NCBI GenBank assembly: GCA_021813505.1
Contig: JAKAKI010000057.1
Location: 62,001-126,000 of the forward strand
DNA from: a bacterium
GTDB lineage: Bacteria; Zixibacteria; MSB-5A5; WJJR01
DNA length: 64,000 nt
Direction: 5' to 3'
Positions 1,337 to 55,494 of the stretch are shown here, piece by piece (within the stretch, counting starts at the first letter, position 1; each line of letters begins with the position of its first letter). The position numbers were made by a program, and so were the translations under genes. The notes under the pieces are model-generated. The model did not search any database. It had not been told where the DNA came from and was given only the letters and a program-made list of their open reading frames with translations.

Positions 1337-4243
1337 ATGATTGGCGAGAAGATCAAACAGTATGAAATCACCGCCCGCCTCGGCGCCGGGGGCATGGGGG
1401 AAGTTTACCTCGCCACCGATACCAGGCTGGGCCGCCAGGTGGCCTTAAAGTTCCTGCCCCGGGAATTCGCCACCGACCCTGACCGCCGTAAACGATTGGA
1501 ACTGGAAGCACGGTCGGCCTCCTCGCTCGACCATCCGAACATCCTCACGATCTACGATATCGATGAGTCCGATGGGCGTCCGTTCATCGCCATGGCGTAT
1601 GTGGAGGGATCGACCCTTAAGGAAAAGACCGCCACGGGCCGTCTGCCGCAGGATGAAGCGATCCGGTATGGCATCCAGATCGCATCCGGATTGGCGGCCG
1701 CCCATGCGCGCGGAATCGTCCATCGCGATGTGAAACCCGACAATGTCATGATTGGAACTGACGACCGTGCGCGGCTGGCCGATTTCGGGCTGGCAAGACT
1801 CAAGGAATCATCGGGGTTGACAGAGCGCGGGAGTACGGTGGGTACAGTCGGATACATGTCCCCCGAACAGGTCCAGGGGATGCCGGTGGATGCCCGGTCT
1901 GACGTCTTCTCCCTCGGGATCGTTCTCTATGAGCTCCTGACCGGTCGCAAGCCGTTCGCGGCCGAGCATGCGGCGGCGGCACTTTACTCGATCGTGCACG
2001 AAACGCCGCCGGCACCACGGGAAGTCAATCCGCAGATTCCCCCTGAGGTATCCGCAGTCATTGAAAAAGCAATGGCCAAGGAACCGGACGACCGTTACCC
2101 GAATGCCGGGGCGCTCGAAACAGACCTGCGTGCCGTGGCCAGGTCGCTGGAAATATCGCGCATTTCCTCTGGTGGCATGCCGGTGTTACGCCCGCAACGC
2201 CGTTTCAGCATTGCCTGGGGAATTCTCGGCGGCGCTGTCATGCTGTTGGGCATGGCATTTCTCTTTGCCTCCCATCTATTCACCGGCGGTGGTCAGCCGG
2301 CCAAGGCTGGCGAGAACACGCTCGCGGTGATGTATTTCGAAAATCTCAGCGATCCGGACGACAAGGAGAGGCTGGGCGATATCATCACGGAATTGCTCAC
2401 GACCGATCTGTCGGCGTCTCAGTTCATCAAAGTCGTTTCCAGCCAGCGCATCTACGATCTGCTGAAACACCAGGGCGCCACATCGGCACGTCGCGTCGAT
2501 CGCGGGGTTGCCACCGAAGTGGCCCGCAAGGCGGGGGCGTCGCGGATGCTCTCGGGCACGCTCTCCAGGCTGAGCGGCCGGACGATCATCACCGCCCAGT
2601 TGGTGGACGTCGCCAGCGGTGACGTCGTGGGATCGGAGCGCGTCGACGGTTCCGATGTCTACGCGATGGTCGACGATCTCTCGATTCGGATCAAGCAGAA
2701 GCTGGGACTCAGCGAGCAGGAAGCGTTGGCGGGCGAAGTGAAGGTCGCCAATGTGACAACGTCCTCCCCCGAGGCACTGCGCGAGTATTTGCAGGGAATG
2801 GATTACTACTACACGCTCGATTGGCCTGATGCCTACAAGCATTTCGACCGCGCACTGGCGCTGGATTCGACCTTCGCGCTCGCGTATTTGCGCAAGGGAA
2901 TCGCCTACATGTCGGATGGGCAGCGCGACAAGGGATTCGCCATGCTGGCCACGGCCGGCCGGTACTCGGATCACCTGGCGGGGTGTGATAAACTCCTTGT
3001 TCAAGCATTCGCCCAGGATCTGGCACAGGGATATAATAAGCTCGGCGCCCTGCGTACTCTGAAGCGTGCAACCATTGAATGCCCGACGGAGAAGGAACCG
3101 TTCTTCTGGATCGCGAACCTCTATCTCGAGGAACGGGGACAAACCGATTCGGCCCTCTACTACTGTCGCCGCGCTCTGGATCTCGACCCGGACTACCCGT
3201 TCGCGCTGTTGATCAAAGCGAATGCGCTGATGGAGCAAAGAGACTATGACGGGGCGAAACCGGTGGTGATGCACTATATGTCAGCCCGGGCTAAAGACTG
3301 GGTCCCGTATTCCCTGATGAGCGACATCTATATCCGAGAGCACAAACGCGATTCGGCCTGGTACTACGCCCGTCGCGCGATGCAGGTGGCTCCTGATCAG
3401 CGCTTCGGATATGTCCAGATTGCGGGACTATTCGTTCAGGAGGGACAGCCGGACTCGGCCATCCATTGGTTCGAGAAAATGATGTCCAACGACCCGACTC
3501 CGGTCACGCGGATCCTTGGGCTCAGACAGATCGCAGCGGTCCACAAGTCCTGGGGGAGGTTCGGTAGGAGCCTGGACGATTACCGTTTGGCAGAGAAGAT
3601 CGCTGATTCGGCCGGCTTGCGGCCTCTGAAGAGCGGCATTCAGCAGTCGCTGGGAGCGCTCTATAACGATACGGAGCGATTCCAGGAGGCGATTTCGCAT
3701 TACCACGAAGCTGCGGTGCTCGACTCGCTCAATCCGGATGCGTCCCTGGCGGAGGCGAAGATCCAATCGAGGCTGGGTAACAAAGATGCCTCGCAGGCGA
3801 TCACGAAGGTTCTCGCGGAGCGGTGGAAGGGACGGGTTGACTCGACCGTGATGATCAGCAGCGGATTCGAGCTCAAAGGGTTTCTTGCGCTGGCTGCCAA
3901 GGACTACCAGGGCGCCATCGAGAATATCACGGCGGCGAGACGCGTGTCGCGCGACACGACAAGATGCCGGATCCAGATCGCGGAAGCATACATCGGCGCC
4001 GGAAATTATAACGAGGCCATCGCCGAGTTGAATTCACTCCGTGAGGACGCCGAATCCCAGTGGCCATCCGGGCAGTACCTGCGTTGCCTGTACCTGCTCG
4101 CCGATGCCCAAGTCAAGGCGGGCCGTCCGCGTGAAGCCATCGAGCCTCTCCAACGATTCCTGGTCTTCTGGGGCAATGCCGAGTGGGATATCCCAATGGT
4201 CAGAGACGCCAAGCAGTTGTTCGGCAGTTTGTCCGCACAGTAA
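1337..4243 (+). CDS. Membrane Ser/Thr protein kinase with FlgO/TolB-N-like domain and TPR repeats
   Basis: Hanks-type kinase of 968 aa. Residues about 1-275 are the kinase: glycine loop GAGGMGEVY, ATP lysine K38 in VALKF, catalytic HRD at 129-131 (HRDVKPDN), DFG at 149-151, and SPEQ/DVFSLG further on, so it should be active. A hydrophobic segment at about 289-313 is a single membrane helix. Next comes a region of about 150 residues (LAVMYFENLSDPDDKERLGD...) resembling the FlgO/TolB N-terminal domain found in other bacterial kinase-TPR proteins. From about 475 to the end there are TPR-like helical repeats (PDAYKHFDRALALD, AISHYHEAAVLD). The expected topology is kinase inside and TPR outside the membrane. 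Signal and targets are unknown. No clear ribosome site precedes ATG 1337. Confidence 0.9.
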   Translation: MIGEKIKQYEITARLGAGGMGEVYLATDTRLGRQVALKFLPREFATDPDRRKRLELEARSASSLDHPNILTIYDIDESDGRPFIAMAYVEGSTLKEKTATGRLPQDEAIRYGIQIASGLAAAHARGIVHRDVKPDNVMIGTDDRARLADFGLARLKESSGLTERGSTVGTVGYMSPEQVQGMPVDARSDVFSLGIVLYELLTGRKPFAAEHAAAALYSIVHETPPAPREVNPQIPPEVSAVIEKAMAKEPDDRYPNAGALETDLRAVARSLEISRISSGGMPVLRPQRRFSIAWGILGGAVMLLGMAFLFASHLFTGGGQPAKAGENTLAVMYFENLSDPDDKERLGDIITELLTTDLSASQFIKVVSSQRIYDLLKHQGATSARRVDRGVATEVARKAGASRMLSGTLSRLSGRTIITAQLVDVASGDVVGSERVDGSDVYAMVDDLSIRIKQKLGLSEQEALAGEVKVANVTTSSPEALREYLQGMDYYYTLDWPDAYKHFDRALALDSTFALAYLRKGIAYMSDGQRDKGFAMLATAGRYSDHLAGCDKLLVQAFAQDLAQGYNKLGALRTLKRATIECPTEKEPFFWIANLYLEERGQTDSALYYCRRALDLDPDYPFALLIKANALMEQRDYDGAKPVVMHYMSARAKDWVPYSLMSDIYIREHKRDSAWYYARRAMQVAPDQRFGYVQIAGLFVQEGQPDSAIHWFEKMMSNDPTPVTRILGLRQIAAVHKSWGRFGRSLDDYRLAEKIADSAGLRPLKSGIQQSLGALYNDTERFQEAISHYHEAAVLDSLNPDASLAEAKIQSRLGNKDASQAITKVLAERWKGRVDSTVMISSGFELKGFLALAAKDYQGAIENITAARRVSRDTTRCRIQIAEAYIGAGNYNEAIAELNSLREDAESQWPSGQYLRCLYLLADAQVKAGRPREAIEPLQRFLVFWGNAEWDIPMVRDAKQLFGSLSAQ

Positions 4244-4819
4244 TTCTCTTTCAATCGAGTTTGCCCCGCAGGGGCGTCCAAGAGAGTAGCTCACGGCGCC
4301 AGCCATGATTTCACGAACGTGAAATAGCATCCAGCCCCATAGGGGCGGGAGATAGTAGCCCGCGGCGTCAGCCGGGGGTTTTGGGCATTTCGCTTCAGAG
4401 CCCCGAAGGGGCGCCCTAATTCAGCCCAGGCCGCCAGGCTTGGGTGGCGAGACCGGAAGAGAAGTTTAGCCCTGAAAGGGTGTTCTATGAGTCCAACGAG
4501 TATTACGTGAGCGATTTCCTCAAAGACTAGATCGCCCTTTCAGGGCTAGTAATTTCATTGACACGTCTCGACCCAGGCCTGGTGGGCGTGTTGAAAAACC
4601 GGGCAGACAAGAGTGTCTGCCCCGCTCCTGGTCATGGAAGTTCTTGTCTCTCAGTGGCGCGGGCACTCTTGTCCGCGCTCTCGTCACCAGATGCTGGGGT
4701 TTTTCAACAGGCCTTGGCAGCCTGGGCTGAATTAGGGCGCCCCTTCGGGGCTCGAACTCTCGCTGAGGACTCGCGCCCGCCGATGACTGGCACGCACCGT
4801 TACCCCGCGTTCACCCCCG
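4244..4819. repeat. Gene-free patch of palindromic repeats
   Basis: No gene is supported here. Three diverged copies of a GCCCCnnnGGGGC palindrome occur at 4263-4275, 4334-4346 and 4400-4412, and the first two are followed by a similar GTAGC-rich stretch ending CAGCC. A fourth, inverted copy lies at 4739-4751. The nested element at 4398-4753 is listed separately. Such short palindromes scattered between genes resemble REP-like or MITE-like families of other genomes. Confidence 0.75.
4398..4753. mobile_element. Nested inverted-repeat, MITE-like element
   Basis: The outer arms 4398-4430 and 4721-4753 are exact reverse complements over 33 bases. Inside are a 14-base exact inverted pair (4467-4480 with 4535-4548) and a 12-base pair (4589-4600 with 4698-4709; TGTTGAAAAACC ends). 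There is also a hairpin with a 9-bp stem and 4-base loop at 4601-4622. No transposase is encoded. The 12-base ends enclosing hairpins inside a larger palindrome look like one small element inserted into another. Mobility is inferred only. Confidence 0.6.
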
Positions 4820-5383
4820 TCACACGGCCAGATGATTGATCACGATTTTGATGCCGATTCCGATCAGAATGATTCCCCCGATCAGAGTCATCCGTTTCCC
4901 GAAGGTCGCACCCAATGTCCGGCCGAATAACATCCCGACGACTGTCATGGCCACCGTGACGGCACCGATGACGACGCTCGGCATCCAAATGCGTATGCCG
5001 AGGAAGGCCATACTCAAGCCCACGGCGAACGCGTCGATGCTCGTTGCGATGGATAGGATGATCAAAGTCCAGCCACGCGTCGGGTCAGGGGCCATCCGCC
5101 GGTCCGGGTGAGTTGAGATCGATTCCCGGATCATCCGAACGCCAACGTACGCCAACAATCCGAATGCCAGCCAGTGGTCATAGGTGTGGATGTATTGGCT
5201 GATTCCGCTTCCCAGATACCATCCCACAATTGTCAGAAGCAGTTGAAAAAGCCCGAAGTGCCACGAGAGCCGGAAGAGCCGGCGGTGCGAGAGTTTCGGC
5301 TGAGTGGATCCGACGGCAATCGCCACGGCAAAGCAGTCCATGCCGAGGCCGATGGCGATCCCCAGAATGGTCAACCAAGCCAC
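4820..5383 (-). CDS. mntP: Putative manganese efflux pump MntP
   Basis: A 187-aa, almost wholly hydrophobic protein of the MntP (DUF204) family, which exports Mn(II) across the inner membrane. It is the usual length and shows the two internally repeated family motifs, GMDCFAVAIAVG near the N-terminus and SIDAFAVGLSMAFLG near residue 110, with acidic residues inside membrane helices. About six helices are expected. The start is GTG at 5383. tRNA-Glu lies 46 bases upstream on the same strand, so there is no room for the yybP-ykoY manganese riboswitch that controls mntP elsewhere. Read-through from the tRNA promoter is plausible. Confidence 0.9.
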   Translation of the reverse strand: MAWLTILGIAIGLGMDCFAVAIAVGSTQPKLSHRRLFRLSWHFGLFQLLLTIVGWYLGSGISQYIHTYDHWLAFGLLAYVGVRMIRESISTHPDRRMAPDPTRGWTLIILSIATSIDAFAVGLSMAFLGIRIWMPSVVIGAVTVAMTVVGMLFGRTLGATFGKRMTLIGGIILIGIGIKIVINHLAV

Positions 5384-5429: not shown

Positions 5430-5507
<78 letters not shown>

Positions 5508-54250: not shown

Positions 54251-54955
54251 CTACTGTTTCAAGTCCACCACAAGGCGCGAATAATCAATTCTGATCCCGG
54301 GGCCCATCGTCGTGGAAATGGACACGTTGCGCACATACTGCCCCTTGGAGGCCGCCGGCTTGGCGCGAATCACCGCATCGATGAATGCCCGCGCGTTCAC
54401 GGACAGCTTTTCCGGCCCGAAGGCGGCTTTGCCGACGGCAGAGTGGATATTGCCGGCGCGATCGACGCGGTACTCCACCTTACCGGCCTTCAAATCGCTG
54501 ACGGCCTTGCCAATGTCCATCGTGACACTGCCGGTCTTCGGCGATGGCATCAGACCGCGGGGACCGAGAACCTTTCCCAGCCGGCCGACCTGCCCCATTA
54601 CGTCGGGCGTCGCCACGATGGCATCGAAATCGAGCCATCCCTCCTGAATCTTCTGAACAAACTCGTCACAGCCGACATAGTCGGCGCCGGCCGCACGGGC
54701 CTCCGCTTCCTTTTCGCCTTTGGTCAGCGCGAGCACGCGTACGGTTTTGCCCGTGCCGTGCGGCAGGATCACGGTTCCACGCACCACCTGATCGGCATGC
54801 TTGGGATCGACGCCCAGACGCATGGCGACTTCGAGCGATTCGTCGAATTTCGCATGGCGCAATTCCAGCGCCAGCGCAACCGCGTCGGACAAAGGATAGC
54901 TCTTCTCTCTGCTGACTTTTGATTTCGCTTGAAGGTGTTTCTTACCGGTCTTCAT
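54251..54955 (-). CDS. rplA: 50S ribosomal protein L1
   Basis: 234 aa, L1 stalk moving E-site t[63 protein letters not shown] and [18 protein letters not shown] 54955. Confidence 0.97.
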
Positions 54956-55068
54956 CGATCCCCCTGGCTCCCACTCGGTGCATCGTGTGCGGTGAGTGGT
55001 CCAAACGCCTGGTCAGGCCTCTGTATGGTTCGGACGTATCGTCAGTGTTGCTCTATTCCTCAGTTTTG

Positions 55069-55494
55069 CTAAAGGACGTCGACTCCCATGCTCCGCGCCG
55101 TGCCCTCAATCATGCGCATGGCGGCTTCCAACGAGGCCGCGTTTAGATCGGGCAACTTCCACTGGGCGATTTCGCGCACCTGATCCTTGGTGATCCGGCC
55201 CACTTTGTTGCGATTGGGCTCGGCGGAGGCCTTCTCCAGCTTGGCCGCCTTCTTGATCAAAACCGCTGCGGGAGGAGTCTTGGTGATAAAGGTGAAGGAC
55301 TTGTCCTTGTAAACCGTAATCACGACCGGAATGATCAGACCGACTTCTTTTTGAGTGCGGGAATTGAATGCCTTGCAGAACTCCATGATGTTGACGCCAT
55401 GCTGGCCAAGCGCCGGGCCCACAGGCGGCGCCGGATTGGCGTTGCCGGCCGGAATCTGGAGTTTCACATACGCGGTGATCGGTTTGGTTGCCAC
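55069..55494 (-). CDS. rplK: 50S ribosomal protein L11
   Basis: 141 aa. [21 protein letters not shown] in parts, [20 protein letters not shown] and [14 protein letters not shown]-type core, SMGVDVL end. It binds the thiostrepton region of 23S rRNA. Confidence 0.97.

Follow-up and report, generated by a model that had tools for sequence, protein, structure and literature searches.

A nested palindrome in Candidatus Zixiibacteriota resembles a transposase-less IS200/IS605-type element with a miniature element in one of its hairpin loops

In a Candidatus Zixiibacteriota genome (G000, 3.89 Mb), two convergent genes are separated by a noncoding composite of two nested repeats, at positions 4398-4753 of the window (the whole stretch of 64,000 nucleotides that was analysed, on contig 9), and the question it raises is what kinds of repeats these are and how one came to lie within the other. 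An earlier note on this DNA had described a 33-base perfect inverted pair enclosing a 14-base pair, a 12-base pair and a 9-bp hairpin, and had suggested either the insertion of one small non-autonomous element into another or a paired REP-like structure of the BIME/REPIN type. The long pair is real, with a perfect run of 34 nt inside an outer pair of 39 nt that is 97% complementary, and the shorter pairs and the hairpin were all located (Table 1), the 14-base pair being part of a 21-nt pair at 90%. The outer pair is far beyond chance, since 30 shuffles of the 64-kb window that preserve dinucleotides gave at most 15 nt for a perfect inverted pair with arms up to 400 nt apart, compared to the 34 observed. 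Taken alone, the 14- and 12-base pairs are near chance (shuffle maxima 12-15), and the shorter inverted pairs matter because they recur throughout the genome.

Table 1. Features of the composite and its surroundings, in window positions.
Feature	Position	Strand	Remarks
Kinase-TPR gene (left neighbour)	1337-4243	+	converges on composite
First REP-like unit of array	4262-4331	+	H1 (GCCCCGCAGGGGC), GTAG, degenerate second hairpin; direct repeat family D1; equivalents in G001 orthologue
Second unit, Acido-Lenti-1 match	4333-4378	-	42.5 bits (gathering score 37)
Left outer arm	4398-4436	+	39 nt, 97% complementary to 4715-4753; perfect run 4398-4431 / 4720-4753
Left arm as Acido-Lenti-1 match	4399-4444	-	48.4 bits; H1 4400-4412, linker CTAATTCAG, intact H2 4425-4444
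Inner hairpin arm, left	4467-4487	+	pair I3; contains TAGCCCTGAAAGGG (4467-4480); inner repeat also adjoins C67 tnpA
40-nt core	4488-4527		position occupied by tnpA at C67; without recognisable tnpA remnant
Inner hairpin arm, right	4528-4548	+	pair I3; contains CCCTTTCAGGGCTA (4535-4548)
Interrupted right-arm H2, left half	4572-4583	+	CCCAGGCCTGGT; ends in target duplication copy TGGT 4580-4583
131-bp MITE-like element	4584-4714	+	left end GGGCGTGTTGAAAAACC, right end GGTTTTTCAACAGGCCT
12-base inverted pair	4589-4600 / 4698-4709		TGTTGAAAAACC / GGTTTTTCAACA
9-bp hairpin within 131-bp element	4601-4622	+	GGGCAGACA .. TGTCTGCCC; arms 4601-4609 / 4614-4622
Right outer arm	4715-4753	+	TGGC 4715-4718, right H2 half (to 4726), linker CTGAATTAG, H1
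Right arm as Acido-Lenti-1 match	4721-4752	+	29.4 bits, below 37
MntP-like gene (right neighbour)	4820-5383	-	converges on composite
tRNA-Glu gene	5430-5507	-	just past MntP-like gene

The inner part of the composite is touched only by two short open frames (55 and 93 aa), and tblastn of the composite with four transposases of the relevant family gave a best E value of 0.11, in line with the earlier description of an element without transposase. A frame in the 40-nt core that ends in EYYVSDFLKD before its stop recalls the TnpA end DERYVWD; it was considered as a tnpA relic and dropped, because tblastn gave no significant match.

The inner of the two repeats is 131 bp long and fits a MITE, being short, bounded by terminal inverted repeats and present in many copies. 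Its 120-bp core (4590-4709) has 41 matches in its own genome, itself included (77 to 100% identity, some partial), 23 in a relative of the same genus (G001), 8 weaker ones in G006 and 0 in the other 35 relatives. The end sequence occurs 65 times with at most one mismatch, compared to 1 occurrence of the reversed control, and it also bounds other short elements of 64 to 530 bp end to end among the loci read. In the window's copy the last five bases of the right end differ from the usual CGCCC. Longer elements with the same ends, in L024 (G000:C74, about 54889-55297), L022 (G000:C88) and L118, contain an inner repeat GTCATTGCGAGGAGCG..GCGACGAAGCAA, which suggests further nesting.

No autonomous partner with these ends was seen in 0.84 Mb of loci (overlaps counted), the longest open frames between end pairs being judged by eye. 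Ten rows of end pairs lie 600-3600 bp apart, three of them representing one place and two another, and the start of the longest open frame revealed no transposase by eye in any of them. One candidate, a 3.05-kb transposon at C88:28640 to 31687, was rejected: it holds ordinary-looking genes by eye, and its right end instead pairs with a second end at L116:3969 as a 214-bp element. In G001, matches of the 131-bp family reach the contig ends at C109, C82 and C133, so these repeats limit the assemblies and could hide an autonomous copy.

Comparison of the two outer arms places the 131-bp element in the loop of the second hairpin (H2) of the right arm, between TGGT and TGGC, and when the hairpin is rebuilt without it 18 of its 20 bases are as in the intact sibling arm. 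This is the non-autonomous element within another that the earlier note had suspected, although the two target repeats of the window's copy agree at only three of four bases. Further arms of the same type are split by elements with these ends at C35, C74, C88, C82:109168-109468, C67 and C64, and the flanks of 131-bp copies are generally inverted repeats whose sequence differs from site to site. To quantify this pattern we used 63 sites, consisting of 50 copies in G000 and G001 that cover 100 nt or more, minus two with shared context, plus 15 other elements for which both ends were found (ends without a partner in the same 20 loci are not counted). The flanks are more palindromic than shuffled ones [mean 7.37 of 14 matches against 6.27, 0 of 5000 shuffles; the 131-bp family alone, with 48 sites, gives 0 of 5000 and the 15 others give 12 of 5000], with at least 9 of 14 matches at 22 sites against 4.9 expected and fewer than 9 at the remaining 41. 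Perfect 4-nt direct repeats occur at 12 of the 63 sites, compared to 0.67 expected and at most 5 in any of 5000 shuffles, and at 11 sites none of the four bases is duplicated; the boundaries used, GGGCGT / CGCCC, are the strongest in a boundary scan of the same 63 sites, so that this test is not blind. Examples are GGCTTCG[..]TTCGCCC (L050) and TGACTTAA[..]TTAAGTTA (L105). An unrestricted local alignment of the flanks gave a weak signal (own mean 6.69 against 5.80 for others, n = 39), and tests bound to register were used instead. From these comparisons the 131-bp element looks like a MITE favouring hairpin or cruciform loops. At L052 (G000:C64) and L103 (G001:C58), orthologous copies occupy one hairpin in opposite orientations, which may reflect either flipping between inverted ends or independent insertions.

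The 131-bp element might instead be a REPIN moved by a Y1 transposase and not a MITE of a cut-and-paste transposase. It contains hairpins, its genome has 11 Y1 matches, and the loci surveyed yielded no autonomous element with its ends, but we regard this as unlikely in view of the 4-nt target duplication, which is not expected for an IS200/IS605-type insertion, and of the flanks read for the 11 Y1 genes, where by eye the ends appear only at C67, in a copy interrupting a neighbouring arm.

A further, quite unlikely possibility is that the hairpins flanking the 131-bp family did not exist beforehand as targets, but belong to the element or arise through its insertion. The frequency of palindromic flanks (the 22 sites above) would agree with such an origin, as would the scarcity of orthologous empty sites: one clear empty hairpin, CCCACCGCCGGAGGCGGTGGG, is found in L110 and is occupied in L055 by an element whose ends are of the same kind, and in the comparison of L056 with L099 the G001 site has no discernible hairpin. 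However, the flank sequences vary by site, intact hairpins of like kind exist without an insertion (the arms at C79, C61 and C19, and L110), and the direct repeats are located at the loop. The earlier note had proposed a search for empty sites and target duplications, and this search succeeded in part: related empty sites and a short duplication were found, but the window's own insertions have no orthologous empty site, since the composite as a whole is different in the sister species.

The outer arms are double hairpins that carry the name Acido-Lenti-1 sRNA (RF01687) in Rfam. The left arm and the unit at 4333-4378 both pass the gathering score, and the right arm falls below it because its H2 is interrupted. 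At E 0.001 or better, the model finds 30 matches in the own genome, compared to 0 in 14 control genomes; 17 of the 30 are above the cut-off, and 18 form nine head-to-head pairs (-/+) within 500 bp. Across the phylum Zixiibacteriota, matches occur in 8 of 132 genomes (above the cut-off in 7), with 119 of the 123 matches listed falling in family f1. Both repeats of the composite are therefore multi-copy in their own genome, as a genome-wide search suggested by the earlier note was meant to reveal, and the arms are two inverted hairpins of REP type, multi-copy and intergenic (the flanking genes converge), as in a REPIN or BIME; the two options that the note had offered as alternatives are true together.

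Each unit consists of H2 (CCCAGGCC-TTCG-GGCCTGGG type, with variable loops), a linker (CTGAATTAG, CTACTATC and others) and H1 (CGCCCCTTCGGGGCT), and the class found in the composite has an extra inner hairpin, CGCCCTTTCAGGGCT, about 25 nt further inward from the arm. At the hairpin foot, where the reference pattern is GT[AG]G, the units at 4262-4378 and those of G001 have GTAG, the window's composite and C67 have TTCAG, and G002 and G006 have ATAG. For 23 of the 30 units, aligned after leaving out six shifted 45-nt units and L174 (the same as L167), 97.7% of the cells in the H1 and H2 stems are paired and double-sided changes number 25, where shuffles gave 5.3 and none of 500 reached 25, indicating that the fold itself is conserved. 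In L046 (G000:C35, about 3057-3501), an Acido-Lenti-1 pair occurs together with the 131-bp element, part of which is duplicated in tandem along with part of its arm.

A transposase gene with matching ends, which the earlier note had recommended looking for, is present at G000:C67, where the arms of the window's composite enclose the gene of a 150-aa IS200-type Y1 transposase (Pfam Y1_Tnp, 78.6 bits). This protein and three relatives exceed the cut-off of 55 bits of the NCBIfam IS200/IS605 TnpA model NF033573 (59.2, 71.2, 74.0 and 61.7), but the same four proteins do not pass the NCBIfam RAYT model REP_Tyr_transpos with its cut-off of 80 bits (25.0, no match, 25.9 and 21.7), so that despite its RAYT-like arrangement we do not class the C67 TnpA as a RAYT; no PDB chain matches it at E 0.001. 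RF01687 repeats flank the transposase gene on both sides at C67, G001:C88, G002:C226 and G006:C28. In the eight genomes carrying RF01687 matches, 5 of 50 Y1 matches lie within 500 bp of one, compared to 0.39 expected (Poisson P 6e-5, a rough value because RF01687 matches cluster). These five genes, the fifth being G001:C62 with one internal stop, are also the top five by E-value to the G001:C88 protein among 131 genomes (42 to 100% identity), and the loci of the next-ranked G002:C468 (40%) and G000:C11 (38%) contain no RF01687 match. G004 and G005 have 14 and 4 RF01687 matches, yet no match to the C88-type TnpA at E 0.001, and both RF01687 and a C88-type tnpA are absent from G003, which belongs to the same family. 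Other Y1_Tnp genes of G000 (L146, L147, L148 and L150) lie among different repeated hairpins, judged by eye, which gives the impression of a separate repeat family for every Y1 gene; L146, for example, is surrounded by GGTGCCCCACGGCTTGCCGTGGG and L148 by GCGATCAGAGATCGC. In L175 (G006:C28), Acido-Lenti-1 units enter the open frame upstream of tnpA, and repeated peptides (GRHTIAQGASPGVRSMIDWRTAPKG) precede its likely start.

The orthologous locus in G001 has conserved flanking genes (87 to 90% identity), and between them three units of the GTAG type and a single H1, followed by a core and then by inverted units, with the 131-bp element absent. The core encodes HHRRMTYVDGFVLFLKEHCAEYDERYMW, which matches the C88 TnpA at 71% identity over 28 residues (tblastn, with very little sequence searched), and a genome-wide search recovered this remnant independently (67% over 30 residues, E 1e-8). 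It corresponds to the 3' end of tnpA located between arrays, which indicates a gutted TnpA element at that place. Counting this 30-residue remnant, the tnpA subfamily is represented in RF01687 arrays by six genes or remnants in four genomes of the family. The earlier note had held that a sequence unique in the genome and conserved at this locus would speak against a mobile element; instead the repeats are multi-copy and the content of the locus differs in the sister species.

A similar nested layout appears in a second phylum. Among the first two plasmids listed of 826 records matching the C88 protein, a Persicobacter (Bacteroidota) plasmid has a tnpA (40% identity) with an RF01687 match of 35.7 bits, just below 37, about 75 bp before it, an inverted partner of this arm after the gene (43 nt, 81%) and an inner inverted pair AACCCTGAAGGGGTTGAAC / GTTGAACCCTTTCAGGGTT (19 nt, 89%), like C67. 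In the other plasmid (Bernardetia, 37%), the inverted hairpins are different ones, without an RF01687 match.

Acido-Lenti-1 could also be a true sRNA, as Rfam files it, or a hairpin of the terminator or 3'-end kind belonging to neighbouring genes, in which case its proximity to Y1 genes would be incidental or secondary. It lies here between convergent genes, its stem covariation fits RNA as well as folded DNA, and a 2026 paper, in its available text, suggests a role for it in protease regulation and finds transposases and integrases absent near Tannerella protease genes with Acido-Lenti-1 downstream, an absence that counts against a transposon end. We nevertheless consider this improbable, given the multi-copy head-to-head pairs and long arrays, the tnpA flanked on both sides at the four loci named above, and the changed content of the orthologous locus with a tnpA remnant inside. 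Since REPs are transcribed in places, a secondary RNA effect of Acido-Lenti-1 is possible. That the nested symmetry is due to chance or to misassembly is hardly credible: contigs of these assemblies do break within element copies, but the 34 perfect bases exceed anything in the shuffles and the recurrence of the parts in many contigs of two genomes refutes an artefact.

The outer structure is thus very probably, as far as sequence comparison can tell, a gene-less copy of an IS200/IS605-type Y1 element with Acido-Lenti-1 ends as inverted arms, into whose right H2 loop a MITE was later inserted. Its apparent arrangement is that of a REPtron, TIRtron or REPIN, and the loop insertion, the duplication and the multi-copy arms together point to a transposase-less REPIN/TIRtron-like copy hit by a MITE preferring hairpin loops. 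A TnpA (HUH/tyrosine transposase) encoded elsewhere, as at C67, would recognise the hairpins as folded single-stranded DNA and would cut and rejoin beside them. Arms with or without the gene could then spread, the gene-less pairs in trans, building arrays. Later the 131-bp MITE, moved by a putative transposase, would have entered the TGGC loop of the right H2, duplicating 4 nt. Sequence comparison itself establishes the shared arms, their copies, the association with TnpA, the insertion in the loop and the target duplication. We infer the binding and movement of the arms by TnpA, its action on folded single strands and the MITE's own transposase, the single-strand step following what the available text of PMC8266576 describes for TnpA-REP.

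On balance we lean towards a wider reading, in which Acido-Lenti-1 across phyla would be, rather than an RNA gene, the folded DNA end of a widespread IS200-type Y1 subfamily that spreads mostly as gene-less inverted pairs, and in which miniature elements of this genus specialised in such hairpin loops, making nested palindromes. If true, this would supply a function for an Rfam family whose description dates from 2010 and which is still little known according to the available text of the 2026 paper, would correct the annotation wherever RF01687 is called, and would provide a natural example of dependence on DNA hairpins shared by two unrelated mobile elements.

Much of this has counterparts in known systems; Y1 genes in TIRtrons and REPtrons (PMC3733652, PMC6006769) and REP-targeting insertion sequences (PMC1525189) are already known, to go by the parts of these papers available. 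TIRtrons, with their TIRYT genes, have a Y1 gene bordered by inverted repeats that are in part self-complementary and may make up a dispersed family, and Acidobacteria are among the described hosts (PMC3733652). The elements described here share this layout, but their repeat is RF01687 and the window's copy is gene-less with a nested insertion; the available text of PMC3733652 mentions neither Rfam nor Acido-Lenti-1. REPtrons, with TnpA-REP (RAYT), REPs, BIMEs and REPINs (PMC6006769, PMC8266576, PMC3116915), resemble our case, as far as these sources go, in having hairpins in inverted pairs or clusters, dispersed intergenically around one transposase gene, and in the GTAG that precedes the hairpin in some of our units. 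Unlike them, the protein here passes the IS200/IS605 model and fails the RAYT model, the unit has two hairpins, and the window's class has TTCAG, not GTAG, before H2.

In the open-licence literature found, as far as its text was available, Acido-Lenti-1 was not tied to a transposase in print, and nothing relevant turned up on elements targeting hairpin loops or on REPs in Zixibacteria. Among the REP-targeting insertion sequences, IS1397, ISPpu9 and ISRm22 (PMC1525189) are similar to the 131-bp element in choosing palindromic repeats for landing, but in comparison with the available account of them the element here is transposase-less, is only 131 bp long, enters the loop of several unrelated hairpins and duplicates 4 nt. 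Finally, the available part of PMC2864571 lists Acido-Lenti-1 as a probable RNA that is not cis-regulatory. The window's arms match this family, the left one at 48.4 bits, but the family appears to behave here as the end of a mobile element, and the identification of RF01687 as a transposon end is likely the new point of this study.
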